From assembly GCF_016907515.1 (NCBI RefSeq), contig NZ_JAFBBY010000001.1, forward strand, positions 3,038,001-3,102,000: DNA of 64,000 nucleotides, read 5' to 3'. The notes below the pieces were generated by a model, which was not told the DNA's origin, did no database searches, and worked only from the letters and a program-made list of their open reading frames with translations. The translations under genes and the position numbers were made by a program. The stretch comes from Nocardioides nitrophenolicus (GTDB lineage: Bacteria > Actinomycetota > Actinomycetes > Propionibacteriales > Nocardioidaceae). Shown in pieces: positions 1 to 63,648 of the stretch (positions within the stretch are counted from its first letter, which is position 1; each line of letters starts with the position of its first letter).

Positions 1-372
1 ACCAACTCCTGGATCCCGACCGCCGACAACGAGGGCACCCGGGCGTTCGTCGAGGCCTACCGGGACGAGAACGGCGTGGCGCCGACGGAGAACATCGGCA
101 ACGGCTATCTCGGCATGCAGGCGATCTTCGCGGCCGTCGAGAAGGCGGGCAGCGTGGTGCCGGCCGACGTGGCGAAGGCGCTGGAGGGACTGACCTTCGA
201 CTCCATCCAGGGTGAGGTCACGCTGCGGGCCGAGGACCACCAGATCGAGGCACCGACCTACGTCGGCACCGTCGAGAAGACCGACGACGGCTCCCTCCAG
301 CTGGTCGCCACGGAGGCGATCCCGGCCTCGGAGAACAACCCGGAGCCCAACCCGGCCTGCAGCCTGGGCTGA
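1..372 (+). CDS. ABC importer solute-binding protein, C-terminal part (5' end outside window)
   Basis: The frame is open from base 1 and ends at the TGA before 373, so only the last 123 residues are visible. They resemble the final lobe of a LivK/amide-type extracytoplasmic solute-binding protein (Peripla_BP_6 class): a helix TRAFVEAYRDENG, then GYLGMQAIFAAVEKAG, then a strand-rich end around FDSIQGEVTLRAEDHQ, where this family usually closes its second lobe. Signal peptide and ligand-binding residues lie upstream and cannot be judged. The FadR-type regulator starts 34 bp downstream on the same strand, and a catabolic island follows. Uptake of the acid substrate, or of a related amino acid or amide, is therefore plausible but inferred. 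Confidence 0.75.
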   Translation, partial: TNSWIPTADNEGTRAFVEAYRDENGVAPTENIGNGYLGMQAIFAAVEKAGSVVPADVAKALEGLTFDSIQGEVTLRAEDHQIEAPTYVGTVEKTDDGSLQLVATEAIPASENNPEPNPACSLG

Positions 373-1177: not shown

Positions 1178-1227
1178 CCGGTGGGCCTCGCGCGGGCGGC
1201 CGGGCCGGGGCTGGTTGCATGTGCTCC

Positions 1228-2085
1228 ATGGCCGACGCACTGGTACTGCCGAGCCAGCGGGGGGAGCAGCCCCTGCTGCCGCCCCCGAGCGCGCGCTCGC
1301 TGCTGCTGACGCTCGCCGGCGAGATGCTCCCGGACCGGCCCGAGGGGGCGTGGACGACCGCGCTGCTGCAGGTCCTCGGCGGGCTGGGGATCGAGGACCA
1401 CGCCGGCCGGCAGGTGCTCGCCCGCTCGGCCGCCGCCGGCTGGCTGGACCGCGAGCGGGTCGGCCGCTCGGTCCGCTGGCAGCTCGCCGCGCACGGCCGG
1501 GAGCTGGTGGCCGAGGGCGTACGCCGCTCGGAGACCTATCTCGCGGCCGACGATTCCTGGGACGGGCGCTGGCTGTTCCTGTTCGTGAGCGTGCCGCAGC
1601 AGCAGCGCACCACCCGCAAGCGGCTGTACGGCGGCCTGGACTGGCTCGGCATGGGCAACCCGACACCCGGGCTGTGGGTCAGTCCCCACAACGAGCGGGT
1701 GCCGGAGCTGCAGCGACTGGTCGCCGACCTCGGTCTCGAGGACACCGCGGTGGCCGTGGCCGGACCCACGGTCGGCGTGGGGCTCACCGAGGCCGAGCTG
1801 GTCGAGCGGTCCTGGGACCTGCGTGAGCTGGCGGAGCAGTACCGCCGCTTCATCGACCAGGTCTCCGCCGCGCCCGAGCCCGCCGGCGCGGACGCGATCC
1901 TGCTCAGCTATCTCGACCTGCTCAACCTGCAGCAGCGCTTCATGCGGCGCGACCCGCAGCTGCCCTCGGCGCTGCTGCCGGAGTGGGTCGGCCGCGAGGC
2001 CGCGGCCCTGCTGCGCGAGCGCCGCCGGAGCTGGGCCCGCAAGGCCCATGCCCGGTTCTGGCAGATCGTCGACGAGTCCGCCTGA
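1228..2085 (+). CDS. PaaX-family transcriptional regulator
   Basis: This 285-residue protein matches PaaX along its length: an N-terminal winged helix (SARSLLLTLAGEMLP, WTTALLQVLGGLGI, then the wing around GRSVRWQLAAHGRELV), a central ferredoxin-like segment with DDSWDGRWLFLFVSVP, and a C-terminal helical domain (LDLLNLQQRFMRRDPQLP, ending WARKAHARFWQIVDES). PaaX proteins repress phenylacetate-type pathways and are released by aryl-CoA thioesters. ATG 1228 is used; another in-frame ATG at 1219 adds three residues. It follows the FadR-type gene by about 50 bp on the same strand, so the island has two CoA-ester-class regulators at its head. No paaABC ring oxygenase genes are seen here, so the effector is probably another aryl or alicyclic CoA. 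Confidence 0.88.
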   Translation: MADALVLPSQRGEQPLLPPPSARSLLLTLAGEMLPDRPEGAWTTALLQVLGGLGIEDHAGRQVLARSAAAGWLDRERVGRSVRWQLAAHGRELVAEGVRRSETYLAADDSWDGRWLFLFVSVPQQQRTTRKRLYGGLDWLGMGNPTPGLWVSPHNERVPELQRLVADLGLEDTAVAVAGPTVGVGLTEAELVERSWDLRELAEQYRRFIDQVSAAPEPAGADAILLSYLDLLNLQQRFMRRDPQLPSALLPEWVGREAAALLRERRRSWARKAHARFWQIVDESA

Positions 2086-2106: not shown

Positions 2107-2895
2107 TCACACGATGGAGACACCGCCGTTGACGCTGATCGCCTGACCGGTGACCCGGGCCGCCGCCGGACCGCACAGGAAGACGGCCATCGCGGCCAGG
2201 TCGGCGGGCTCGGCGACGCCGAGGTGCGCCTGGCTGGCGGCCTTCTCGAAGAGCTTCTTGCTGAAGCCGTCACTCAGCACGTTGGCGGCCGTCGCGGTGC
2301 CGGCGATCAACGACGGGGTCAACACGTTGACCCGGACGCCGTTGCGCTTCGCCTCGAGCGCCGCGACCCGGCTGTAGACGACGATCGCGGCCATCGCCGC
2401 GCCGAGCGCGGCCTCGCCGGGCGTCGGGACCTTCGCGGCGTCCGAGGCGATGGCGACGACGCTGCCGCCGCCCTGCTCCTGCAGGTAGGGCAGCACGGTC
2501 CGGGTCAGCAGCATCGGCGGCAGCGCCTGGCCGACCAGGATCCGCTCGATGTCGGCGGGGTCGGTGCGGTGCAGCAGCTCGGGGCGGTACGCCGTCGTGG
2601 TCGAGCAGACCAGCGCGTCCAGCCCGTCGAGCCGCTCGTGGGCGGTTCCCACGGCGTCGACGACCTGGCTCAGCTCGCCGGCGTCGCAGGCGAGGAACTC
2701 GACGCGCGCGTCGGGGCAGCGCTCGGCGACCCGCTCGCGGGCCGCGGCGCCGCGGCCCGGGTCGCGGCCGAGCAGGGCGATCCGGCGGACCCCCGCGTCG
2801 GCGAAGGCCTCCGCGGTCGCCAGGCCGACGCCGGAGGTGCCGCCGGCGACGAGAACGGCCGAGTCGGCGTACGAGCGGACGAGCGGGACGGTCAT
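2107..2895 (-). CDS. SDR-fold protein lacking the catalytic Tyr/Lys pair
   Basis: The 262-residue protein has the SDR Rossmann start (VLVAGGTSGVGLA, about residues 14-26), and the late GVRVN and CGPAAARVTGQAISVNGG segments align with classical SDRs. The catalytic YxxxK motif is replaced by L164-G-A-A-M168. The conserved serine (S151 in IASDAA) is retained, and the usual NAG motif reads VCSTTTAY. The cofactor loop is intact, so a dehydrogenase with altered chemistry, a lyase/isomerase-like role, or a regulatory NAD-binding protein are all possible. Start ATG 2895 lies on the edge of a region with the palindrome at 2925-2939 and the operator-like box at 2956, divergent from the CoA ligase at 3032. 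Confidence 0.8.
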   Translation of the reverse strand: MTVPLVRSYADSAVLVAGGTSGVGLATAEAFADAGVRRIALLGRDPGRGAAARERVAERCPDARVEFLACDAGELSQVVDAVGTAHERLDGLDALVCSTTTAYRPELLHRTDPADIERILVGQALPPMLLTRTVLPYLQEQGGGSVVAIASDAAKVPTPGEAALGAAMAAIVVYSRVAALEAKRNGVRVNVLTPSLIAGTATAANVLSDGFSKKLFEKAASQAHLGVAEPADLAAMAVFLCGPAAARVTGQAISVNGGVSIV

Positions 2896-3031: not shown

Positions 3032-4654
3032 ATGCTGAAGACCTCCCACTGGCCGGCCGAGCCGGGCGACGTGCGCGCGGTCACCGTGTGCGAGGTGCTG
3101 CGCCACGCGGCCGAGACGGTCCCGGACCGGCTCGCCCTGGTCGACTGCGTCGCCGAGCCGGAGCGTCGCCGGAGCTGGACCTACGCCGACCTGGTCGCCG
3201 ACGCCGAGCGGGCCGCGCGGGCGCTGCTCCAGCGCTACCGCCGCGGCGACCGGATCGCGGTGTGGGCGCCCAACAGCGCCGACTGGATCGTGCTCCAGCA
3301 CGGCGTCGCCATGGCCGGCATGGTCCTGGTGGCGCTCAACCCGGCGTACCGGACCCGCGAGATGGCCTTCGTGCTGCGCCAGTCCGGGGCGGTCGCGGTG
3401 TTCTGCGTCGACGAGTACCGCGGCTTCGAGATGCGCGCGCTGGTCGAGGGCATCCGCGACGAGCTCCCCGACCTCCACGACGTGCACTCCTTCGGCGAGT
3501 GGTCGGCCTTCCTCGACAGCGCGGACCCGGCGACGAGCCTGCCGGCGATCGATCCCGAGGACATGATCCAGGTCCAGTACACCTCGGGCACGACCGGCTT
3601 CCCCAAGGGCGCGATGCTGCACCACATGGGCCTGGTCAACGAGGCCACCTTCGTGGCCGAGCGCGCGGACTTCGCCGACGGCGACGTCTACGTCAACGCG
3701 ATGCCGATGTACCACATCGGCGGCGGTGCGGTGACCTCCTTCGGCGCCTGGGCCAAGCGCGGCACCTTCGTCCTGCTGCCCGGGTTCGACCCCGCGCACC
3801 TGCTCGAGGCGATCGAGACCTACCGCGGCACGCACTCGCTCGTCGTACCGACGATGCTGATCGCGATGCTCGACCACCCCGACGCCGCGACCCGCGACCT
3901 CGGCTCCTTCAAGACGGTCCTCAGTGGCGCCGCCTCGGTGCCGGCGGCGCTGGTGCGGCGCACGATCAGCCAGCTGGGCTGCCAGTTCACCATCCTGTTC
4001 GGGCAGACCGAGACGCACGGCGTGATCAGCCAGACCCGGGTGACCGACTCGCCCGAGGACCAGGCCGACACGGTCGGCCAGCCGCTGCCGCGGCTCGAGG
4101 TCAAGATCGCCGACCCGGCGTCGGGGGAGCCGCTGCCGACCGGCGTCGCCGGCGAGATCTGCGTGCGCGGCTACCAGAACATGCGCGGCTACTACGACCT
4201 GCCCGGCGAGACCGCGATGACCATCGACGCCGACGGCTGGCTGCACATGGGCGACATCGGCTCCATGGACGAGCGCGGCTTCCTGCGCGTGACCGGGCGG
4301 GCCAAGGACATGATCGTCCGCGGCGGGATGAACCTCTACCCCGCGGAGATCGAGGCGGTCCTGCTCGACCATCCCGCGATCGAGACCGCCGCCGTGATCG
4401 GCGTTCCCGACGAGAAGTGGGGCGAGCAGGTCGGGGCGGTGCTGTGCGTCCGGGCCGGGCACGACCGGCCGACCGTCGCCGAGCTGACCGCCTTCGTCCG
4501 CGAGCAGATCGCGCCCCACAAGGCGCCGACGTACTGGTCCTTCGTCGAGGAGCTGCCGATGACGCCGACCGGGAAGATCCAGAAGTTCGTGCTGCGCGAC
4601 CGGATCGACGCCGGGTCGCTCACCTTCGACGAGGTTCGGCAGGCGACGATCTGA
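3032..4654 (+). CDS. Acyl/acid-CoA ligase (AMP-forming, FadD-like)
   Basis: This 540-residue protein is of the ANL superfamily and forms a CoA thioester from a carboxylic acid through an acyl-adenylate. The P-loop-like motif YTSGTTGFPKG starts at residue 183. The adenine motif is around FGQTETHG, the hinge region reads GDIGSMDERGFLRVTGRAKD, and the C-terminal catalytic lysine in PTGKIQKF is K515. Start ATG 3032 is chosen because AGGAG lies six bases before it; a longer frame from 2969 has no such site. It is divergent from the SDR at 2107 and converges with the AraC gene, overlapping it by 35 bp. The substrate is unknown; the surroundings favour a cyclic or branched acid. It is the first of three ligases in the island. 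Confidence 0.9.
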   Translation: MLKTSHWPAEPGDVRAVTVCEVLRHAAETVPDRLALVDCVAEPERRRSWTYADLVADAERAARALLQRYRRGDRIAVWAPNSADWIVLQHGVAMAGMVLVALNPAYRTREMAFVLRQSGAVAVFCVDEYRGFEMRALVEGIRDELPDLHDVHSFGEWSAFLDSADPATSLPAIDPEDMIQVQYTSGTTGFPKGAMLHHMGLVNEATFVAERADFADGDVYVNAMPMYHIGGGAVTSFGAWAKRGTFVLLPGFDPAHLLEAIETYRGTHSLVVPTMLIAMLDHPDAATRDLGSFKTVLSGAASVPAALVRRTISQLGCQFTILFGQTETHGVISQTRVTDSPEDQADTVGQPLPRLEVKIADPASGEPLPTGVAGEICVRGYQNMRGYYDLPGETAMTIDADGWLHMGDIGSMDERGFLRVTGRAKDMIVRGGMNLYPAEIEAVLLDHPAIETAAVIGVPDEKWGEQVGAVLCVRAGHDRPTVAELTAFVREQIAPHKAPTYWSFVEELPMTPTGKIQKFVLRDRIDAGSLTFDEVRQATI

Positions 4655-6710: not shown

Positions 6711-6725
6711 GGCGGCTCAGCCGCC
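6711..6725. terminator. Hairpin between convergent genes
   Basis: GGCGGCTCAGCCGCC forms a 7-bp perfect stem with a one-base centre, just after the SDR stop at 6703 and over the last codons of the convergent activase gene. There is no U-tract, as is common in GC-rich actinobacteria. A bidirectional terminator is the simplest reading. Confidence 0.4.
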
Positions 6726-7655
6726 GAGCCGCACCGGCAGGCCGAGGTCGACCGCGTGGGCGGCGCCGGTGTCGATGGTGCCGTCGCAGCTGCCGCAGGA
6801 GTGCGGCTCGCTCGGACGGGGGAAGAGCCGGTCCGCGCCGGCCACGTCGTCGGCGACCGGCCGGCCACGCCGGTCGGCGTCGCGGGCGAGCAGCGCGGCG
6901 CCGTACGCGCCGGTGATCTGCGGGTGCGCGGGAACGAGCACCTCGGTGTCGAGTGCCCGCGCGAGGAAGGCGACCGCGGCCGGGTTCTGCGCCACCCCGC
7001 CGGTGAGTACGACGGGTGTGTGCCGCCCGACCTGTGCCACCAGGGCGAGGGTCCGGGCGGCGATGGCGCGGTGCACCGAGGACGCGATGTCGGCGACCGG
7101 GGCGTCCTGCGCGAGCAGTGAGACGATCTCGGTCTCGGCGAAGGTCGCGCACATGGTGGAGATCTCCAGGTCGGTGCTGCCCTTCAGAGCGAGCGCGCCG
7201 AGCTCCTCGATCGGCACCTCGACCGCCGTGGCCAGCACCTCGTAGAACCGGCCGGTGCCGCTGGCGCAGCGGTCGTTCATGGCGAACTCCTGGACCAGGC
7301 CGTCGTCGTCGACGGTGATCGCCTTGGAGTCCTGGCCGCCGATGTCGATGACGAGCCGGCACCCGGGCACCATCGCGGAGGTCCCGCGGGCGTGGCAGGT
7401 GATCTCGGTGAAGGTGCGCTGCGCCCCGGGGACCAGGCGCCGGCCGTAGCCGGTCGAGACGGTGCCGTCCAGGTCCTCGGCCGTGAGGCCGGCGTCGGCC
7501 AGTGCCGCGTCGACCGCGCGCTGCATGCCGGCGCGGGACACGGCGCCCATCGCGATCGTGCTCGACGACACGATCGCGCCGTCCTGGTCGACCACGACCG
7601 CCTTCGCCGTGGTGGAGCCGAGGTCGACGCCGAGGTAGCGGCGCTCGCCGGTCAC
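6717..7655 (-). CDS. ATP-dependent [4Fe-4S] activase of the BcrAD/HgdC family
   Basis: The 312-residue protein belongs to the ASKHA-fold activases that inject a low-potential electron into benzoyl-CoA reductases or 2-hydroxyacyl-CoA dehydratases at the cost of ATP. Visible motifs: GVDLGSTTAKAVV (phosphate 1, residues 9-21), the GGQDSKAI segment near 106, the two cluster cysteines C130 (NDRCASGTGRF) and C169 (STMCATFAETE) that would join one [4Fe-4S] across a homodimer, and the adenosine motif LTGGVAQN. The C-terminus runs about 50 residues past the core and carries a CGSC pair (C287, C290). It overlaps the upstream large-subunit gene by 4 bp (ATGA), so translation is coupled. A single activase gene means a homodimer, as in HgdC, rather than the BcrA/BcrD heterodimer. 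No ferredoxin gene is visible in the window. Confidence 0.9.
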   Translation of the reverse strand: MTGERRYLGVDLGSTTAKAVVVDQDGAIVSSSTIAMGAVSRAGMQRAVDAALADAGLTAEDLDGTVSTGYGRRLVPGAQRTFTEITCHARGTSAMVPGCRLVIDIGGQDSKAITVDDDGLVQEFAMNDRCASGTGRFYEVLATAVEVPIEELGALALKGSTDLEISTMCATFAETEIVSLLAQDAPVADIASSVHRAIAARTLALVAQVGRHTPVVLTGGVAQNPAAVAFLARALDTEVLVPAHPQITGAYGAALLARDADRRGRPVADDVAGADRLFPRPSEPHSCGSCDGTIDTGAAHAVDLGLPVRLGG

Positions 7656-8998
7656 GACGCCTGCGCCCGCTTCACGTCGATCGCCTCCAGCATCGCCGCC
7701 AGCCGGCTCTCCAGGATCTCCTCCTTGTAGAAGGAGGCGTCGGCGACGTCGCCCTCGAAGAAGATCGACGGGATGCCGAGGTTGTTCTGGGCCGAGCGGG
7801 CCAGCAGCCGCTGGGGGCCGGTGAACGCGCGGCAGGTGCGGGTCGAGTGGAAGACGATGCCGTCGACGTCGTACTCCTCGCAGTCGCGCAGGGTGAGGTA
7901 GTCGAGGGTCCGGGTGCCGTGGTTGGTCGGGCAGAGCAGGTAGTGCTGGGCCATGCCGAGCAGCGGGTCGTCGGTGTCGATCAGCTGCGGCTCCTGCCAG
8001 AAGGCGTTGGTGATGTAGCGCCCCGCCATCACGGCCACGCCGTGCTCGGCGAACTTGCGCGAGAGGAAGCCGAGCTTGTTCCAGTTCATGATGCCGTCGA
8101 AGTAGAGCCGGTAGCGCTCGTTCTCGATGCCGGTGATGCCGTGGTCGATCCGGTGCTGGATCTCGTCGCGCACGGACGCGAAGTAGTCGACGAGCTCCTG
8201 GTTTCCCGGCAGGAAGTTGATCGGGGCGATCGCGGAGATCCAGTCCCAGAAGGTCGCGGGCGCCGGCTTGGCCTTGCAGAGCTCGAGGCCCTCACGGCGC
8301 AGCTCGGCGGCGCGCTTGATGTAGGTCATCGACTCGCGCAGCAGGTCCCAGTCGAACTTGTTGCCCGATCGCTCCTCCAGCCAGGCGATGAGGTCGACCA
8401 GCTGGTCGCGGACGTAGCGCGACGCCGACTCCCACTCCTCACCCTGGAGGTACCCGGCGTCGGCCTTGTTGCCCCACAGGAAGGGGTGGGAGATGTTGAA
8501 GATCGGCACCTCCTTGTCGAAGACCCGGTAGGAGATCTCGTCCCACTGCTGGCCGGTGCTGCAGCCGGCGTAGTTGTTGACGAAGAAGTCCGGCGCGGGC
8601 AGCCGGGCCGCCAGCTCGGCCTGGTCGTGCGCGCCGACGACGCCGGTCTGGGCGCCCTCGTCGCCCTGCACGGTGAGGACGGCGCAGCCCAGGTGGGTGC
8701 GGGAGTACGAGCACAGCTCGGCGTTGTAGCCGTACTCCGCCCCGGCGAGCTGGGCCGGGCCCTCGAGCTGTTGGGCCGCGAGGCGGGCGGCGAACGCCTC
8801 ACCGTGGCACCAGGCCAGGCCGGCGGCCTGGAAGATCGGGTTCAGCGCGCCGCCGTTGTACCAGACGATCTGCTGGCCACGCTCGCGCGCGGTGAACAGG
8901 TCGTCCCAGTACTGCGCGACCATCCGGTTGCCGTGGCGGGTGGCGGCGAGGCGGTTGGTGCGGTCCGGGGTGGCGAGCGGGGGCATCGTGGCGGTCAT
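7652..8998 (-). CDS. Benzoyl-CoA reductase / 2-hydroxyacyl-CoA dehydratase large subunit (BcrB/HgdA type)
   Basis: The 448-residue protein matches the HGD-D family. From memory of BcrB, several landmarks align: C96 in AELCSYSR, C146 in YAGCSTGQQW, the ENERYRLYFDG segment followed by NW and a VAVMAGRY strand (296-328), DTDDPLLGMAQHYLLCPTNH with C356, and C389 in HSTRTCRAFTG. These cysteines are the expected cluster ligands and active-site shell. Family members dehydrate 2-hydroxyacyl-CoAs through ketyl radicals or reduce the benzoyl-CoA ring two electrons at a time. The YRLYFDG and C389 regions look closer to BcrB than to HgdA. ATG 8998 is preceded by GAGGAG; the longer frame to 9388 only overlaps the small-subunit gene. 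Middle gene of a three-gene operon. Confidence 0.9.
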   Translation of the reverse strand: MTATMPPLATPDRTNRLAATRHGNRMVAQYWDDLFTARERGQQIVWYNGGALNPIFQAAGLAWCHGEAFAARLAAQQLEGPAQLAGAEYGYNAELCSYSRTHLGCAVLTVQGDEGAQTGVVGAHDQAELAARLPAPDFFVNNYAGCSTGQQWDEISYRVFDKEVPIFNISHPFLWGNKADAGYLQGEEWESASRYVRDQLVDLIAWLEERSGNKFDWDLLRESMTYIKRAAELRREGLELCKAKPAPATFWDWISAIAPINFLPGNQELVDYFASVRDEIQHRIDHGITGIENERYRLYFDGIMNWNKLGFLSRKFAEHGVAVMAGRYITNAFWQEPQLIDTDDPLLGMAQHYLLCPTNHGTRTLDYLTLRDCEEYDVDGIVFHSTRTCRAFTGPQRLLARSAQNNLGIPSIFFEGDVADASFYKEEILESRLAAMLEAIDVKRAQAS

Positions 8999-9015
8999 GG
9001 GTGGCTCCTCGTCGG

Positions 9016-10194
9016 TCAGGCGTAGGCGGGACGGTTGCGGTGGCTGCGCTCGATCAGCGCTTCGAGCCGGGTGCGGAAGGACTCCAGCGGGATGCCCTCG
9101 TGCTCGGTCTCGATGAGCAGCTGGGGGATCCCGGCGGCCTCGAGGGCACGGCGCAGCTCGGGGTAATAGAGCATGTGCGGCTCGCAGAACTTCGGCATCA
9201 GGTGGACGACGGCCTCGGCGCCGCTGCGCTCCGCGGCGGCCAGCAGCCACTGGTCCCAGTCGACGTCGTGCTGCACCCGGGTCGGGCACGGCAGCGCGAC
9301 GTTCCGGCCGGCGTACCACTCGGCGACGGCGGTCATCGGCGGCAGTGACTCGTCCAGGTCGGTCTGCAGGTAGCGGCGCCCGGTCCACAGGTCGTCGTCG
9401 ACCACGACGGCGCCGGCCTCCTCGATCACCTCGAGCAGCTCGCGGCGCGGGGCATGGCAGAGGTGGCCCGAGAGGTGGACCCGGATCCGGTCGTCGCGGG
9501 TGCGCGGCGCTCGGCCCGCGACCACCGCGGACAGCAGCGCGTGGTGCTCGTCGGGGTCCATCACCTGCGCCGAGGCGACGATGTCCTGCAGCTCGACCGG
9601 GCCGAACGCGCAGTCGCCCGCGGCGCGCGCGTCGAAGAGCCGCCGGATCAGCGAGCGGTCGCGGTTGAACGCCCGGATGCTGGCGGCCAGTGCCGCGTCG
9701 GTGACCTCGGTGCCCGCGAAGGCCTCGACCTCGGCCCGGAGGGTCGCGACCATCTCGGCGATCTTGGCACCGGCCCCGCGGTCGCTGAGCGAGCTGATCA
9801 GCTGGCCCAGGAACACCGGCGCACGCGGCTCGAGCTCGCGCACGATGTCGGTCGCGCCGAGGAGCTGAATGCAGTGGTCGGCGACGAAGAGCCCGTCGTA
9901 GAGGTCGAACCGCCCGGTCGCGGCCTGGTCGGCGAGGTTGCGGGTGAAGCCGCAGTAGAACTCCGGCAGGAAGGCCCGCCCCTCGGTCACCGGCTGCTGG
10001 TCGTCGGGGACGATCACCGGCAGTACGCCGGCGGCGTGCGCCAGCTCCCGCGGGAAGTTCATCGGCAGCACGCCGAGGACCTTGCGGTCGGGATGCTCCT
10101 CCCGCCAGCGCTGTACGTAGGAACGCGGGTCGCGGGCGATCGAGCGCAGGGCGGCGAGCGGGTCCGCGGCGTCGGCGGTGTCCGGCCTGTCCAT
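9016..10194 (-). CDS. Benzoyl-CoA reductase / 2-hydroxyacyl-CoA dehydratase small subunit (BcrC/HgdB type)
   Basis: The 392-residue protein is the second HGD-D subunit. It opens with the domain start KVLGVLPMNFPRELAHAAG, followed by the candidate cluster cysteines C81 (FYCGFTR), C108 (VADHCIQ) and C337 (MPKFCEPH), with a central LSGHLCHAPRRELLEVIEE module and the LIETEHEGIP end typical of the family. It would form a heterodimer with the 448-residue subunit, each carrying a [4Fe-4S] cluster, and act on a CoA thioester. ATG 10194 is chosen with GGAAG five bases upstream; a GTG at 10206 lies too close to its Shine-Dalgarno sequence. It is the first gene of the operon (17-bp gap to the next) and is divergent from the flavoprotein gene at 10264. 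Confidence 0.88.
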   Translation of the reverse strand: MDRPDTADAADPLAALRSIARDPRSYVQRWREEHPDRKVLGVLPMNFPRELAHAAGVLPVIVPDDQQPVTEGRAFLPEFYCGFTRNLADQAATGRFDLYDGLFVADHCIQLLGATDIVRELEPRAPVFLGQLISSLSDRGAGAKIAEMVATLRAEVEAFAGTEVTDAALAASIRAFNRDRSLIRRLFDARAAGDCAFGPVELQDIVASAQVMDPDEHHALLSAVVAGRAPRTRDDRIRVHLSGHLCHAPRRELLEVIEEAGAVVVDDDLWTGRRYLQTDLDESLPPMTAVAEWYAGRNVALPCPTRVQHDVDWDQWLLAAAERSGAEAVVHLMPKFCEPHMLYYPELRRALEAAGIPQLLIETEHEGIPLESFRTRLEALIERSHRNRPAYA

Positions 10195-10263: not shown

Positions 10264-11385
10264 ATGAACAGTGAAGCCCTGGGAAGTGCGGGAGCGAGCC
10301 TCGACGCCGCCCCGATCAGCAACCGGTGGACCCGCCTGGTCGGCGTACGCCACCCGATCGTGCAGGAGGGCCTCGGGCCCTTCCGGACGCCGCGGCTGGC
10401 CGCGGCGGTCTCCAACGCCGGCGGGCTCGGGACCGTGTCCATGCCCGGCATGCCCGAGGACATCGAGAGCGGCGCCCGGACCTTCCGCGAGCACATCGAG
10501 GAGTGCGCCGCGCTGACCGACCGGCCCTTCGCCGTCAACATCCCCGTCGGCGTCGACGCCGCCGGCCGGGTGCTCCCCTTCACCGACGTCTACATCCGGA
10601 TGGTGCTCGACCTGCGCCGCACCGACAGCGAGATCGCCCGCCGGCTCACCGTCATGACGACCTCGGCAGGCTTCCCCGGCGACTACGTCGCCATGGTCAA
10701 GGACGCCGGCATGGTCCACCAGCACAAGGTCGGCGCCACCCGCCAGGCGGTGAAGGCGGCCGAGGCCGGCGTCGACGTCGTGCTCGCGGCGGGCTTCGAG
10801 ATGGGCGGCCACGCACCGGCGGCGAAGGTGCACACCTACGTGCTGGTGCCGAGCGTGACCGAGGCGGTCGACGTACCGGTGCTGCTGACCGGCGGCGCCC
10901 GCGACGGCCGCGGCCTCGCGGCGGCGCTGGCGATGGGCGCCGACGGCGTGGCCATGGGCACCCGGTTCATCACCAGTCGCGACAACTCCGACTGGCACCC
11001 GGCGTACGTGCAGGCCCTGCTCGCCGCGACCGAGGGCGACGATGTCGCCTTCGACGGCGTCTACGGACCCTGCCGCGGCCTGCGCAACGCGGCCTCGGAG
11101 CAGCTCCTCGCCCATGGCGCGTCCGGGCTGCCGGCCGACCCGGTGGAGCTGGTGCGCTGGAAGATCGAGTCGATGCAGCGCGCGCAGACGACCGGCGACA
11201 CGACCGGCAGCCTGGTGATGACCGGCCAGGTCGCCTCGGCCATCCACGACCTGATCGACGTCGCGGAGTTCGTGGCCCGGATGGCGCAGGAGGCGGCCGA
11301 CGTACTGCGGTCGCTGGCGCGGCAGCTCGACGGAGTGGCCGGTGCCCCGCGTCGTACCGGACGAAATGGCGGTGATTCAGGTTGA
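10264..11385 (+). CDS. Nitronate-monooxygenase-type FMN flavoprotein (IpdC-like)
   Basis: The 373-residue TIM-barrel flavoprotein is of the 2-nitropropane dioxygenase/NMO family. The start of the barrel reads IVQEGLGPFRTPRLAAAVSNAGGLG, the conserved histidine region is AAGFEMGGHAP, the FMN phosphate site is LLTGGARDGRGLAAAL, and the segment MGTRFITSRD follows. In steroid-degrading actinobacteria a member of this family (IpdC, Rv3553 group) acts on CoA thioesters of ring-derived acids rather than on nitronates. The CoA-rich neighbourhood favours such a reductase/oxidase role. It is divergent from the dearomatase-like operon, sharing a 69-bp promoter region, and ends just before the convergent acyl-CoA dehydrogenase. 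Assignment to the family is firm; the reaction is inferred. Confidence 0.85.
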   Translation: MNSEALGSAGASLDAAPISNRWTRLVGVRHPIVQEGLGPFRTPRLAAAVSNAGGLGTVSMPGMPEDIESGARTFREHIEECAALTDRPFAVNIPVGVDAAGRVLPFTDVYIRMVLDLRRTDSEIARRLTVMTTSAGFPGDYVAMVKDAGMVHQHKVGATRQAVKAAEAGVDVVLAAGFEMGGHAPAAKVHTYVLVPSVTEAVDVPVLLTGGARDGRGLAAALAMGADGVAMGTRFITSRDNSDWHPAYVQALLAATEGDDVAFDGVYGPCRGLRNAASEQLLAHGASGLPADPVELVRWKIESMQRAQTTGDTTGSLVMTGQVASAIHDLIDVAEFVARMAQEAADVLRSLARQLDGVAGAPRRTGRNGGDSG

Positions 11386-11417: not shown

Positions 11418-12554
11418 TCAGAAGAGCGACTTGGCGATGATCTCGCGCTGGATCTCGTTGGTGCCGCCGAAGATCGGCGGCGCCAACGCCCGGCGTACCT
11501 GGAACTCCATGCCGTACTCCCGTGCGTAGCCGGCACCGCCCATCAGCTGCATCGCCTCGAGCGCGGTCCGCTTGGCGACCTCGGTGGCGCGCATCTTGGC
11601 CATCGCGGACTCCCGGGCCAGGTGGTCCTCGCGGCCCTCGTCGATCGCCTGGGCGACGTCGTACACGAACGAGCGGGTGACGGCGATGTCGGTGGCGAGG
11701 TCGGCGACCCGGTGGCGCAGGGCCTGGAAGCCGCTGATCGACTGCCCGAACGCGTCGCGCTGGCGCATGTAGGCGATCGCGTCCTCCAGCGACCGGCGGG
11801 CCGCGCCGATGCTGAAGGCGGCGATGATCATCCGCTCCACGCTGAGCCCGCGCATCAGCTGCTTCCAGCCCTGTCCGGCCTCGCCGACCACGGCCGACGC
11901 CGGCACCCTGGCCTGGGTGAAGAAGACGTCATTGCAGGTGCGCGCCTCCATGGTGCGGACCTCGCGCATCTCGATGCCGGGGGTGTCGGTCGGCACCATC
12001 AGCAGGGTCAGACCCTGGTGCTTGGGGCCGGAGGCGTCCTCGCGCACCAGGACGAGCATGTGCTCGGCGATGTGGGCCACCGAGATCCACGTCTTCTGGC
12101 CGTCGATGACGTAGGCGTCGCCGTCGCGGATGCCGCGGGTCCGCACCGCCCCGAGGTCGGAGCCGGTGCCCGGCTCGGAGAGGGCGATCGCCTCGGTGCG
12201 CCCGGCCACGAGGTTGGAGACGATGGTCTTCTTCTGCTCCTCGGTGCCCCACTTGAGGTAGGTCTGCGCCGCGGTGAGGCCGGTCGTGTACGCCAGGATG
12301 CCCGGCGTCAGGCCGCGGTGCGCCTCCTCGATGAACACGCACTCGTCGACGAAGCCGGCCCCGCCGCCGCCGTACTCCTCGGGCAGCGAGACGCCGAGCC
12401 AGCCGAGGTCCGCCATCTTGTCGAGGATCACCTGGCTGGTGGCGACGGTGTCGTTCTCGGTGAGCGCGTCCCACTGGGCGGAGGTGCCGTACTCCCGCGC
12501 GCAGAAGGCCTCGATCGCGGCGGCGAACTCGAGCCGCTCGGCGTCCAGCTGCAT
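11418..12554 (-). CDS. Acyl-CoA dehydrogenase
   Basis: The 378-residue protein shows all three ACAD domains: an N-terminal helical part with LGWLGVSLPEEYGGGGAGF, the middle beta part with ALSEPGTGSDLGAVRTRG and TWISVAHIAEHMLVLV, and the C-terminal four-helix part with RDAFGQSISGFQALRHRVADL and QLMGGAGYAREYGME. The base position next to the GT loop is glycine (IFGGTNEIQR), so the catalytic glutamate is probably in the helix containing LSVERMIIA, as in isovaleryl- and long-chain-type ACADs. A cyclic, branched or CoA-linked ring substrate fits. The gap to the upstream BadI-like gene is 9 bp, so the two form one operon (dehydrogenation plus ring hydrolysis). Confidence 0.9.
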   Translation of the reverse strand: MQLDAERLEFAAAIEAFCAREYGTSAQWDALTENDTVATSQVILDKMADLGWLGVSLPEEYGGGGAGFVDECVFIEEAHRGLTPGILAYTTGLTAAQTYLKWGTEEQKKTIVSNLVAGRTEAIALSEPGTGSDLGAVRTRGIRDGDAYVIDGQKTWISVAHIAEHMLVLVREDASGPKHQGLTLLMVPTDTPGIEMREVRTMEARTCNDVFFTQARVPASAVVGEAGQGWKQLMRGLSVERMIIAAFSIGAARRSLEDAIAYMRQRDAFGQSISGFQALRHRVADLATDIAVTRSFVYDVAQAIDEGREDHLARESAMAKMRATEVAKRTALEAMQLMGGAGYAREYGMEFQVRRALAPPIFGGTNEIQREIIAKSLF

Positions 12555-12563
12555 CGGGTGCCC

Positions 12564-13358
12564 TCAGTTCCCGCGGTACTGCGAGAAGTCGGGCTGCCGC
12601 TTCTCGTTGAACGCGGTGATGCCCTCCTGCGCCTCCGGCATCTCGCCGAACAGCTTGAGGGTGGTGATCGCCATGTTGCCGATCGCGACGAAGTGCTCGG
12701 TGTCGCTGTTGAAGGACTGCTTGAGCACCTTGAGCGCGGTGGGGGAGTACGAGTTCATGGTCTCGGCCCAGGCGCGGACCTCGTCCTTGAGGTCGGCCGC
12801 CGGGACGACCTTGTTGACCAGGCCCCAGTCCAGCGCCTCCTCGGCGCTGAGCCGGCGCAGCATGAACCAGATCTCGCGGGCGCGCTTCTCACCGATGACA
12901 CGGGCCAGGTAGCCCGAGCCGAGACCGGCGTCGAAGCTGCCGACGCGGGGCCCGTTCTGGCCGAAGCTCGCGGTGTCGGCGGCGATGGTCAGGTCCGCGA
13001 GCACGTGCAGCACGTGGCCGCCACCGATGGCGAGCCCGTTGACGGCCGCGATCACGGGCTTCGGTACGTCGCGCATCACCCGGTGCAGCGCCTCGACCTC
13101 GAACAGCCCGCTCTGGGAGGGGCCGTAGTCGCCGGTCTCCATCCGCTGCTTCTGGTCGCCGCCCGCGCAGAACGCCTTGTCGCCGGCGCCGGTGAGGCAG
13201 ATGGTCCCGACCTCGGCGCTCGCCCAGGCGCGCTTGAAGGCCAGCACCAGCTCGTCGACCGTCTGGGCGCGGAAGGCGTTGAAGCGCTCCGGCCGGTTGA
13301 TGGTGATCCAGGCGAGGCCGTTCTCGACCTCGTAGGTGATGTCGGTGAAGTTGTCCAT
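12564..13358 (-). CDS. BadI-like 2-ketocyclohexanecarboxyl-CoA hydrolase (crotonase superfamily, MenB branch)
   Basis: This 264-residue crotonase is closest in my memory to BadI, which hydrolytically opens the ring of 2-ketocyclohexane-1-carboxyl-CoA to pimeloyl-CoA. Family-typical pieces are RFNAFRAQTVDELV, ICLTGAGDKAFCAGGDQ, MRDVPKPVIAAVNGLAIGGG, FGQNGPRVGSFDAGLGSGYL, ARVIGEKRAREIWFMLRR, SPTALKVLKQSFN and the end FNEKRQPDFSQYR. MenB (naphthoate synthase) shares the GPRVGSFDAG core, but no menaquinone genes are nearby. AGAAGGA lies before ATG 13358. It leads a two-gene operon with the acyl-CoA dehydrogenase and faces the divergent hotdog thioesterase across two operator-like sequences. This is the best evidence that the island processes an alicyclic or reduced aromatic CoA ester. 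Confidence 0.82.
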   Translation of the reverse strand: MDNFTDITYEVENGLAWITINRPERFNAFRAQTVDELVLAFKRAWASAEVGTICLTGAGDKAFCAGGDQKQRMETGDYGPSQSGLFEVEALHRVMRDVPKPVIAAVNGLAIGGGHVLHVLADLTIAADTASFGQNGPRVGSFDAGLGSGYLARVIGEKRAREIWFMLRRLSAEEALDWGLVNKVVPAADLKDEVRAWAETMNSYSPTALKVLKQSFNSDTEHFVAIGNMAITTLKLFGEMPEAQEGITAFNEKRQPDFSQYRGN

Positions 13359-60819: not shown

Positions 60820-63648
60820 TTAGTCGCGGCTGAGTCTTGCGGCGAGCAGCTCCGCCAGGTGCACCGGCTCCGCGTCGGGCGCCAGCTCGTCGAGCTGGGT
60901 CCGGCACGAGAAGCCGTCGGCCAGGACGACCCGACCCGCGACGTCCGCCGACGAGCGCAGCGCCGGCAGCAGGTTCGCCTCGGCCACGGCGACGGACACC
61001 TCGTAGTGACCCTGCTCGACGCCGAAGTTGCCGGCCATGCCGCAGCATCCGGGCACCGCCTCGACCGTGGCGCCCGCCCGCTCGAGCAGCGCCTGGTCGG
61101 TCGACCAGCCCATCACGGCGTGGTGGTGGCAGTGCGGCTGCGCGACGATCCGCACCCCGGCCAGGGACGGAGGCGTCCAGCCGGGAGTGCGGGAGAGCAG
61201 CTCGGCCAGGGTGGTGGTCGCGCCGGCGACGGCCGCCGCGTCCGGTCCGGGCACCAGCTCGCGCAGCTCGTGGCGCAGCACGGCGGTGCACGACGGCTCC
61301 AGCCCGACGATCGGTACGCCGGCCAGAGCGTCGGCCTTCAGCGCGTCGACCATGCCGCCGAGGCGCCGGGCGGCGCCGTCGAGCTGGCCGGTGCTGATCC
61401 ACGGCAGCCCGCAGCACTCCTGCTGCCGGGTGATCCGCGGGTCGTAGCCCGCGTCGCGGAGCACCGCGACCGCGGCCTCGGCGACGCGCGGGGCGAAGTG
61501 GTTGGTGAAGGAGTCGACGAAGAGCACGACCGGCGTGCCCGTGCCGACGGAACCCCCGAAAGTACGGCGGAAGGTCCGCCGGGCGAACGCCGGCATCCGC
61601 CGCCGGGTGTCGACGCCGGCGGCCTTGAGCGCCACCTTGCGCAGCGGCGTCACGTCCATCGACCGGTTGGCGAAGCGCGGCATCGCGGAGCCGAGCTTGG
61701 CCCAGCGGGGCAGCCAGCCCACGGAGTAGTGGGAGCGCGGACGCAGCCTGCGCTTGTAGGTCTGGTGCAGCACCTCGGCCTTGTAGGACGCCATGTCGGT
61801 GCCGGTGGGGCAGTCCGACGCGCAGCCCTTGCAGGACAGGCACAGGTCGAGCGCCTCGTGGACCTCGGGCGAGCTCCAGGTCGTCGTACTCGACCCGTTG
61901 ACGATCTCCTGGAGCAGCCGCGCGCGGCCGCGGGTGGAGTGGATCTCCTCCTTGGTGGCCTGGTACGACGGGCACATCACGCCGCCGGAGCCGCTGTTGT
62001 CGGCGCGGCACTTGCCGACGCCGGTGCAGCGGTGCACGGCCTGGCCGAAGTCGCCGCGGTCGGCGGAGTAGGCCAGCGCGAGGCCCTTGGTCAGCCGGGC
62101 GGTCGAGGTGTAGCGCAGGTCGGCGGTGCTGGACGCGGGCTCGACCAGGATGCCCGGGTTGAGCATCCGGGTCGGGTCGAAGACGTCCTTCACGGCGGCC
62201 ATCAGGGACAGCGCGGCGGGGGAGTACATCCGCGGCAGCAGGTCGCTGCGCGCCCGCCCGTCGCCGTGCTCGCCGGACAGCGAGCCGCCGAGCGAGGTGA
62301 CCAGGTCGGCGGCGTCCTCGAGGAAGGCGCGGAACCGGTCGGCCCCGTCGGGCCGCTCGAACGGGAAGTCCATCCGCACGTGCAGGCAGCCCTCGCCGAA
62401 GTGCCCGAAGGGCATCGCGCTCAGCTCGTGCCGGGCGAGCAGCTCCTCGAACGAGGTCAGGTAGGTGCCGAGCCGCTCCGGCGGCACGGCGGCGTCCTCC
62501 CACCCGGCCCACGCGGGCTTGCCCGAGGGCGCGCGGCCCGCGAGCCCGGCGCCGTCGGCGCGGATCTTCCACAGCCGGTCGGCGGTCCGCGGGTCGTCGA
62601 TCACCTGCGCCGACACGCCGAGCCCCGCGGCGGCCAGCAGGTCCGCCCGGCGGCGGACGTCGTCGGGGTCCTCGCCCGACAGCTCGACGAACACCCACGC
62701 GTCGCCGGGCGGCAGGTCGGGGACGGCGTTCGGCCCGCGCCGCTCACGGATCACGTCGACGATGCGGCGGTCCAGGCCCTCGCACGCGGACGGCTCGAAC
62801 GCGAGCACCTCGGGGGTCGCGAAGCCGGCGGTCGGGAAGTCGGGGAAGCCCAGCACCACCATGACCGCGGCCTTCGGGGCCCGGACCAGGCGGACGGTCG
62901 CCTCGGTCACCACGGCGAGGGTGCCCTCGGAGCCGACCAGGGTGCGGGTCAGGTCGAAGCCGCGCTCGGGCGCGAGATGGTCGAGCGCGATGCCGGACAC
63001 GTGGCGACCGAAGGTGCCGAACTCGGTCCGCACGGTCGCCAGGTCACCCGCGACGACGGACCGCAGCCGGTCCAGCACGTCGGAGCCCTCGGCGGTGGCG
63101 ACCGGCCTGCCGTCGGCGTCGTAGCCCGTGCTCAGGCTCGACCCGTCGGCGAGCAGCCCGCGCACGCCGCGCACGTTGTGGGAGGTCCGCCCGAACGCGA
63201 GCGAGCGCGCCCCGCAGGCGTCGTTGCCGATCATCCCGCCGATGGTGCATCGGGTGCTGGTCGACGGGTCCGGGCCGAACCTCAGCCCGTGGGGCGCCGC
63301 GGCCTGCTGCAGCACGGCCTGGACGACGCCGGGCTGCACCACCGCCGTCCCGGCCTCGGGGTCGACGGCGAGGACCTGGTTGAGATGGCGGCTGAAGTCG
63401 ACGATCACGCCCGGCCCGATCGCGTTGCCGGCGACCGACGTACCGGCTCCCCGCGCCGTGACGGTGAGCCCCTCGGCGCGGGCCGCCGCCAGGATCGCCG
63501 CCACCTCGTCGACCGAGCGCGGGAAGGCGACGGCGACGGGCGGGACGCGGTACAGCGAGGCGTCGGAGGAGTAGGCGCCCAGGACCGCGGCGTCGTCGCT
63601 GACGTCGCCCGCTCCGTGGCGCTGGAGCTGGAGAGCGATGCCGGACAC
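60820..63648 (-). CDS. FAD/[4Fe-4S] D-2-hydroxyacid dehydrogenase (D-2-hydroxyglutarate dehydrogenase, YdiJ/D-lactate type)
   Basis: This 942-residue fusion begins with a PCMH-type FAD domain (VAFPRSVDEVAAILAAARAE, TARGAGTSVAGNAIGPGVIV, FGPDPSTSTRCTIGGMIGND) and an FAD-linked oxidase C-domain (PFGHFGEGCLHVRMDFPFER, GGSLSGEHGDGRARSDLLPR, MLNPG). Then come a ferredoxin-like Fe-S module (CTGVGKCRADNSGSGGVMCP; CLSCKGCASDCPTGTDMASY) and a C-terminal CCG/heterodisulfide-reductase-like domain (ECCGLPWIS, EPSCTAVLR, QPHCHHH, GCCGMAGNFG). It oxidises a D-2-hydroxyacid and passes electrons to quinone or another carrier. GTG 63648 is the start. The divergent PucR-type gene may control it. Confidence 0.9.
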   Translation of the reverse strand: MSGIALQLQRHGAGDVSDDAAVLGAYSSDASLYRVPPVAVAFPRSVDEVAAILAAARAEGLTVTARGAGTSVAGNAIGPGVIVDFSRHLNQVLAVDPEAGTAVVQPGVVQAVLQQAAAPHGLRFGPDPSTSTRCTIGGMIGNDACGARSLAFGRTSHNVRGVRGLLADGSSLSTGYDADGRPVATAEGSDVLDRLRSVVAGDLATVRTEFGTFGRHVSGIALDHLAPERGFDLTRTLVGSEGTLAVVTEATVRLVRAPKAAVMVVLGFPDFPTAGFATPEVLAFEPSACEGLDRRIVDVIRERRGPNAVPDLPPGDAWVFVELSGEDPDDVRRRADLLAAAGLGVSAQVIDDPRTADRLWKIRADGAGLAGRAPSGKPAWAGWEDAAVPPERLGTYLTSFEELLARHELSAMPFGHFGEGCLHVRMDFPFERPDGADRFRAFLEDAADLVTSLGGSLSGEHGDGRARSDLLPRMYSPAALSLMAAVKDVFDPTRMLNPGILVEPASSTADLRYTSTARLTKGLALAYSADRGDFGQAVHRCTGVGKCRADNSGSGGVMCPSYQATKEEIHSTRGRARLLQEIVNGSSTTTWSSPEVHEALDLCLSCKGCASDCPTGTDMASYKAEVLHQTYKRRLRPRSHYSVGWLPRWAKLGSAMPRFANRSMDVTPLRKVALKAAGVDTRRRMPAFARRTFRRTFGGSVGTGTPVVLFVDSFTNHFAPRVAEAAVAVLRDAGYDPRITRQQECCGLPWISTGQLDGAARRLGGMVDALKADALAGVPIVGLEPSCTAVLRHELRELVPGPDAAAVAGATTTLAELLSRTPGWTPPSLAGVRIVAQPHCHHHAVMGWSTDQALLERAGATVEAVPGCCGMAGNFGVEQGHYEVSVAVAEANLLPALRSSADVAGRVVLADGFSCRTQLDELAPDAEPVHLAELLAARLSRD

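Follow-up and report, generated by a model that had tools for sequence, protein, structure and literature searches.

A distinct benzoyl-CoA reductase/2-hydroxyacyl-CoA dehydratase-type operon in Nocardioides nitrophenolicus and its possible place in alicyclic acid catabolism

A 64,000-nt stretch of DNA from the soil actinobacterium Nocardioides nitrophenolicus (the window; the window's own genome is the genome of this assembly) carries three adjoining genes that, by sequence, form an operon of the benzoyl-CoA reductase/2-hydroxyacyl-CoA dehydratase (BCR/HAD) radical enzyme family. The genes are as follows.

9016..10194, minus strand: small (electron-relay) subunit, PF06050; Pfam HGD-D 196.8 bits, cut-off 28.4
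7652..8998, minus strand: large (catalytic) subunit, PF06050; Pfam HGD-D 180.9 bits, cut-off 28.4
6717..7655, minus strand: ATP-dependent activase, a single gene with a C-terminal CxxC tail; Pfam BcrAD_BadFG 201.9 bits, cut-off 31.5

The operon is real and its frames are intact, with Pfam scores far beyond chance. Its coordinates, gene order, strand and the 17-bp gap between the small and large subunit genes agree with the original prediction, made from the sequence alone, and the Pfam matches lie well above their cut-offs. The 4-bp overlap between the large subunit and activase genes is GTGA, not the ATGA given there. An in-frame GTG could lengthen the small subunit gene to 10206. The window's own genome holds a single PF06050 pair, that of this operon, and only one activase above the Pfam cut-off; neither BcrB nor NarG was found in it above model cut-off. 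In relatives each operon has a single activase of this type, by a survey that did not extend to divergent second copies. The ratio of nonsynonymous to synonymous substitution (dN/dS) was computed against the two closest relatives: with Nocardioides J54 it was 0.081 (large subunit), 0.252 (small subunit) and 0.147 (activase), and with Root190 0.130, 0.220 and 0.165 in the same order. The large-subunit values indicate purifying selection.

Scores against subgroup models all stayed below cut-off. The large subunit reached 134.6 bits with NCBIfam HadB (cut-off 750), 110.1 with BcrB (486.6) and 70.7 with BzdO (448.6), and the small subunit 140.1 bits with BcrC (421.2), 126.6 with BzdN (453.8) and 113.2 with HadC (700). 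Of the NCBIfam models, the activase passed only the general TIGR00241 (232.7 bits, cut-off 125.4); the nearest PDB chain of the activase is HadI (4eht). By the features tested, the enzyme is not a certified HAD, class I BCR or double-cubane cluster protein; it likely shares their working principle. A double-cubane cluster protein was rejected because the window has two different subunits, in contrast to the one homodimeric subunit of those proteins, and because model NF040772 gave 108 and 45.7 bits for the two subunits, below its cut-off of 350. A certified class I BCR was rejected on the missed equivalog cut-offs, the one activase and the presence of only four of six double-cubane cysteines.

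In the tree, 68 large subunits, mainly from actinobacteria with some from proteobacteria, formed their own clade (support 0.905). The HAD clade, whose references were HadB-like only (the search by name did not extend to FldB, LcdA or HgdA), closes without the window's clade (support 0.998), which also lies outside the MbdO-like aryl reductases and apart from BzdO. The suggestion of a new subgroup was thereby supported, by the separate clade, its own active-site residues and the absence of any named subgroup cut-off reached; placement inside a known dehydratase clade was not seen, the large subunit falling outside the HadB-like one. On this sequence evidence, what is new is a separate clade marked by distinctive residues in the active site; the BCR/HAD family itself is known.

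A scan at one genome per species gave 66 loci. Actinobacterial genera with the locus are Nocardioides, Amycolatopsis, Pseudonocardia, Rhodococcus, Nocardia, Gordonia, Brevibacterium, Citricoccus and others, and the proteobacterial ones include Zhongshania, Sphingopyxis, Novosphingobium and Paracoccus. The genera carrying the clade are mostly regarded as aerobes. The locus is rare, being present in 1 of 149 family genomes and 1 of 396 phylum-sample genomes, each time the window's own. No paper on this clade was found in the open-access literature, as judged by titles and abstract starts, and nothing there paired 2-hydroxyacyl-CoA dehydratase, or an aerobic 2-hydroxyglutaryl-CoA dehydratase, with Rhodococcus; PMC9686372, by its listed title and abstract start, deals with anaerobic Coriobacteriia relatives. 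Several genomes carry paired, diverged operon copies about 7-36 kb apart (L018/L025, L024/L039, L028/L043, L027/L044, L021, L022 and L037), which suggests two substrates or two steps. Two loci from Burkholderiales metagenome-assembled genomes (L046, 6107-11323, and L058) show a tandem small-large-small-large arrangement with no activase called nearby.

The activase cysteines C130 and C169 and the large-subunit cysteines C96, C146, C356 and C389 stand at the positions first claimed for them, and no cluster cysteine is substituted in relatives: C130 and C169 are invariant in 60/60 activases, and C96, C146 and C389, together with E67, Y98 and Y328, in 67/67 clade members. C96, C146 and C389 align with Cys95, Cys128 and Cys380 of BzdO, which are described as cluster ligands in the available text of PMC11971306, and E67 and Y98 are the counterparts of BzdO Glu65 and Tyr97. 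C356 is without counterpart in the sampled HadB-like and MbdO-like rows, yet it too occurs in 67/67 clade members. In the small subunit, C81, C108, C303 and C337 (counted from 10194) are invariant (65/65). Numbered from 10206, the same four residues are C85, C112, C307 and C341. Of these, C85, C112 and C341 align with BzdN C73, C100 and C327, whereas C307 has counterparts both in BzdN (C293) and in HadC. Four of the six BzdN double-cubane cysteines thus have counterparts, and C36 and C263 have none. This incomplete double cubane excludes the Bzd subtype but not every BCR, because MbdN also misses some of these cysteines. Of 60 activase copies, 55 have the CxxC among their 60 C-terminal residues, on a tail that extends past the part aligned with the shorter HadI, HgdC and MbdQ chains. 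Structure prediction, one of the checks initially proposed, was run on the large subunit and gave a model (mean pLDDT 88.9) whose best PDB match is HadB.

HadBC of Clostridioides difficile is an (R)-2-hydroxyisocaproyl-CoA dehydratase, and HadI is its activator. The window's operon resembles HadBC/HadI (3o3m, 4eht) in its two PF06050 subunits, three large-subunit cluster cysteines, equivalents of E67, Tyr98 and Tyr328, single activase and closest predicted structure. It differs in the 22-26% identity of its large subunit to HadB-like rows, its clade-specific polar residues, the activase tail and its position beside alicyclic-acid catabolism genes. With the class I BCRs BzdNOPQ and MbdONPQ it shares the family and the large-subunit cluster ligands, and the small subunit scores nearer this side; unlike them it has one activase instead of two, and unlike Bzd it carries Gly at the position of BzdO His131.

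The neighbourhood was compared over the 65 loci with a called large subunit. The small subunit was found in 60 of these and the activase in 58. The other relevant features of the window are listed below with their locus counts.

1..372, plus strand: putative ATP-binding cassette (ABC) transporter binding protein (Liv type), C-terminal part; open frame at the window edge, named by eye
1219..2085, plus strand: PaaX-family transcriptional regulator; three PaaX Pfam domains above cut-off; 41/65 loci
2107..2895, minus strand: SDR3, a BadH/MrcD-like short-chain dehydrogenase (SDR) without catalytic Tyr and Lys; 58/65 loci
3032..4654, plus strand: LIG4, acyl-CoA ligase; Pfam AMP-binding 308.8 bits; 46/65 loci
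10264..11385, plus strand: NMO/FabK-like flavin mononucleotide enzyme, divergent from the operon; Pfam NMO 160 bits, FabK 179.4, below cut-off; cluster in 14 loci, window counted
11418..12554, minus strand: acyl-CoA dehydrogenase adjoining the BadI-like gene; profile matches; cluster ACAD9 in 14/65 loci
12564..13358, minus strand: BadI/MrcE-like ring-cleaving hydrolase (crotonase family); BadI 313.4 bits, cut-off 467.6

A synteny comparison, also proposed at the outset, found the module of SDR3, ligase and PaaX-type regulator conserved across many genera, and the acyl-CoA dehydrogenase and LLM-type neighbours named originally are present by profile matches. The parts of the system, their conservation and their linkage can be read from the sequence directly. 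A LIG4 or LIG13 ligase occurs in 53 of the 65 loci, a CaiB-like gene in 19 and a BadI-like gene in 18; the PaaX-type regulator scored 124.3 bits with TIGR02277, below the cut-off of 264.55. SDR3 mostly shows L/I-G-A-A-M where canonical relatives have V-Y-S-x-x-K: the Tyr is found in 0/60 copies, and Met replaces Lys in 59/60. The SDR3 of Azoarcus KH32C shows the same loss of catalytic residues, and a further SDR3 paralogue in R. ruber retains the Lys. The predicted SDR3 fold is that of a classical SDR; its top structural hits, many of them tied to within roughly 1 Z unit, include levodione reductase and isopiperitenol dehydrogenase. To the left of the window, the genome carries the rest of the putative Liv-type transporter, a second SDR3, a LIG13-type ligase, a CaiB-like gene, two enoyl-CoA hydratases and a gene of the phosphotransferase (APH) cluster; left-arm genes in L083 match those of relatives at 81-88% identity. 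The APH-cluster gene (L083, 9774-10823), beside the two enoyl-CoA hydratases and found in 9/65 loci, is perhaps an acyl-CoA hydroxyl kinase.

The BadI-like protein is named only as such because it misses the BadI cut-off. Its scores with MenB TIGR01929 (301.2, cut-off 342.7) and PRK07396 (332.6, cut-off 380) also stayed below cut-off. It is 52% identical to an Azoarcus KH32C relative of MrcE. At the genome level, context was counted over 43 genomes, corresponding to 43 of the 66 loci. Rows 73-96% identical to the BadI-like protein were present in 38 of these, on the same contig and within 60 kb in 30, and a second, MenB-like paralogue was present in 37. A P450 close to that of the R. jostii locus L039 occurred in 30 of the 43 genomes (E up to 1e-120) and on the large-subunit contig in 21 of these, always within 60 kb. 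It was found in 0 of 396 phylum-sample genomes, in a scan that scored no more than four candidates in each. The closest PDB entries to the L039 P450 are P450tol (681 bits) and then P450terp (464 bits), and by sequence we would place the relatives' P450 in the CYP108N subfamily. CYP108N-type P450s act on p-cymene, limonene, p-xylene, alpha-terpineol and terpinen-4-ol by hydroxylating the ring methyl, according to the available text of PMC11279926. Because many relatives have BadI/MrcE-type hydrolases no more than 60 kb away, often together with a P450tol/CYP108-type monooxygenase, the operon likely serves a monoterpene-like or alicyclic acid pathway.

Plasmid pAZKH of Azoarcus KH32C carries the operon with SDR3 and, about 25 kb away, genes that order and annotation identify with the ones matched in print to Castellaniella monoterpene ring-cleavage proteins (PMC4109377, in the part available). 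The shared features with the mrc genes of Castellaniella defragrans and their KH32C relatives are the BadI/MrcE-like hydrolase and a 2,4-dienoyl-CoA reductase-like SDR14 (12/65 loci), whereas the Castellaniella island table, in the available text of PMC4109377, names no BCR/HAD subunit and lists several rows as "hypothetical protein". The cluster on R. ruber plasmid pmega_1 is annotated with a 3-hydroxy-3-methylglutaryl-CoA lyase, a thiolase, an acetyl-CoA hydrolase/transferase and two P450 sets. The set next to a ring-hydroxylating dioxygenase (L080, 4724-11736), with ferredoxin, reductase, and alcohol and aldehyde dehydrogenases, perhaps belongs to a p-cymene/p-cumate route. The dioxygenase link weakened p-cymene as a sole substrate.

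Our tentative preference, held at somewhat less than an even chance, is that the operon encodes a functional enzyme from a separate BCR/HAD clade, carried mostly by aerobes, in a CoA-dependent pathway for alicyclic (monoterpene-like) acids, probably with dehydratase chemistry. In this scheme, the CoA ligase would make the acyl-CoA. As the product of one gene, the activase would presumably be a homodimer bridged by a single [4Fe-4S] cluster (C130/C169), and it would use ATP to drive one low-potential electron via the small-subunit cluster to the large-subunit [4Fe-4S] cluster (C96/C146/C389). With Y98 and Y328 positioning it and E67 serving as acid/base, the thioester carbonyl would be turned into a ketyl radical that most likely expels an alpha-hydroxyl, converting a 2-hydroxyacyl-CoA to a 2-enoyl-CoA. 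The electron would be recycled as in HADs, so that only traces of low-potential electrons would be needed. The enoyl-CoA may then be hydrated, oxidised and ring-cleaved by BadI/MrcE-like hydrolases before beta-oxidation. The reaction, its substrate and its direction are what we infer. Speculative substrates are of the 1-hydroxycyclohexanecarboxyl-CoA type, or 2-hydroxyisobutyryl-CoA remaining from the side chain of a terpineol. Being tertiary, such 2-hydroxy acids are not oxidisable to 2-oxo acids.

The single activase, the HadB-like fold and score, the incomplete double cubane and the few ferredoxin-like genes (3/66 loci) point to a HAD-like recycled electron, which suggests dehydration of a 2-hydroxyacyl-CoA. 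The original choice between a CoA-ester ring reductase and a dehydratase thus narrowed toward dehydratase-type chemistry on the one activase, the four of six double-cubane cysteines and the HadB fold, with the ring reductase kept as the less favoured half. The ferredoxin-like genes are of 7Fe type and lie in one Amycolatopsis and two Saccharopolyspora loci (L009, 13630-13977; L017, 7075-7401; L019, 6935-7261); they are possible electron donors.

Several observations weigh against dehydration in such a pathway. The small subunit favours BcrC over HadC (140 vs 113 bits) and has an extra cysteine in common with MbdN. The clade's nearest relative in the tree is a Rhizobium large subunit (support 0.999, long branches), encoded in an operon that has a pair of activase genes as BCR operons do. 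Residues Y47, H65, Q150, Q151, N305 and R327 are invariant in the clade and were not seen in the sampled HAD and Mbd rows, and position 49 is Gly where 11/11 HAD rows carry Ser (HadB Ser37), so the chemistry may differ from that of HADs. The loss of catalytic residues in SDR3 is explained by no version of the pathway. A CYP108-like P450 is missing from the window's own genome, the best match there having 38% identity. The published perillyl-CoA route, as described in the available text of PMC4109377, has no step needing this enzyme, and perillyl-CoA was rejected as direct substrate on this ground. Finally, no HadA-type CoA-transferase was identified among the operon neighbours. The had and fld operons carry a HadA/FldA-type CoA-transferase gene. 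As a candidate for such a neighbour, the CaiB-like gene by the R. ruber small subunit is doubtful, being nearest to alpha-methylacyl-CoA racemase (445 bits); its homologue in the left arm of the window's genome matched type III CoA-transferase models weakly (best 146 bits, cut-off 750).

Some of these points would fit a class I-like aryl-CoA or dienoyl-CoA reductase, which we regard as unlikely. Here the P450 and the alcohol and aldehyde dehydrogenases of relatives would make an acid from a toluene- or p-cymene-type hydrocarbon, followed by the ligase, ring reduction and opening by hydratase, SDR and BadI-like enzymes. Such a reductase stays in play through the small subunit, which leans to BcrC/BzdN and has the MbdN cysteine, through the Rhizobium neighbour with its two activases, and through the nearby ring-cleavage genes. 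The P450 of near relatives is closest to P450tol, for which benzylic hydroxylation of toluene is reported (PMC11219674, in the text available), and BadI-type hydrolases lie nearby; in R. palustris the BCR product reaches BadI via cyclohexenecarboxyl-CoA (PMC9795900, available portion). The single activase, the missed BCR cut-offs, the incomplete double-cubane ligands and the scarcity of ferredoxin-like genes argue the other way, as does the pmega_1 P450 set beside the dioxygenase, since this is a conventional oxygenase-based way of degrading an aromatic acid.

A third ketyl-radical reaction is somewhat less likely again. It could be an isomerisation, or the loss of a leaving group from a more distant position of a ring enoyl-CoA, and the Tyr/Lys-less SDR would be its obligatory partner. 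Room for it comes from the clade-specific residues of the active site and from the disabled SDR, and SDR3 is as frequent beside the large subunit as the activase (58/65 each), with Tyr absent in 60/60 copies and Lys in 59/60. The overall fold and cluster ligands, however, are the same as in known members, and the reaction itself is a conjecture. A non-functional or barely used relic gained by transfer, to which the patchy distribution might point, is highly improbable given intact frames, invariant ligands, a module conserved in many genera and dN/dS of 0.08-0.25 for all three genes against both relatives.

Ketyl-radical enzymes driven by ATP are usually assigned to anoxic metabolism. The available text of PMC11971306 places BCRs in anoxic environments and HADs in clostridial amino-acid fermentation. 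A clade conserved under selection in presumed aerobes, and linked to ring-cleavage gene clusters, would imply that ketyl-radical chemistry works, or is shielded, in aerobic cells and supplies a missing part of terpene or alicyclic acid degradation. A broader proposal, which we consider rather unlikely, is that the clade represents a third functional BCR/HAD class, routine in the catabolism of monoterpene-type alicyclic or aryl acids by aerobes, with new active-site chemistry, a CxxC-tailed activase and an obligatory partner of SDR fold that has ceased to act as an ordinary dehydrogenase, possibly running or protecting radical chemistry under oxygen.

Among other loci, the two-activase BCR/HAD set of the Rhizobium leguminosarum plasmid (L074, 5887-11315) is accompanied by an ABC binding protein. 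A molybdoenzyme of the dimethyl sulfoxide reductase family adjoins the large subunit in Sphingopyxis (L055, 11415-13577), and a similar-looking gene lies near it in a Rhodobacteraceae locus (L051, 12366-14480). In the window, a 942-aa open frame at 60820-63648 (minus strand) carries a CxxCxxCxxxCP iron-sulfur motif and is not linked to the operon.

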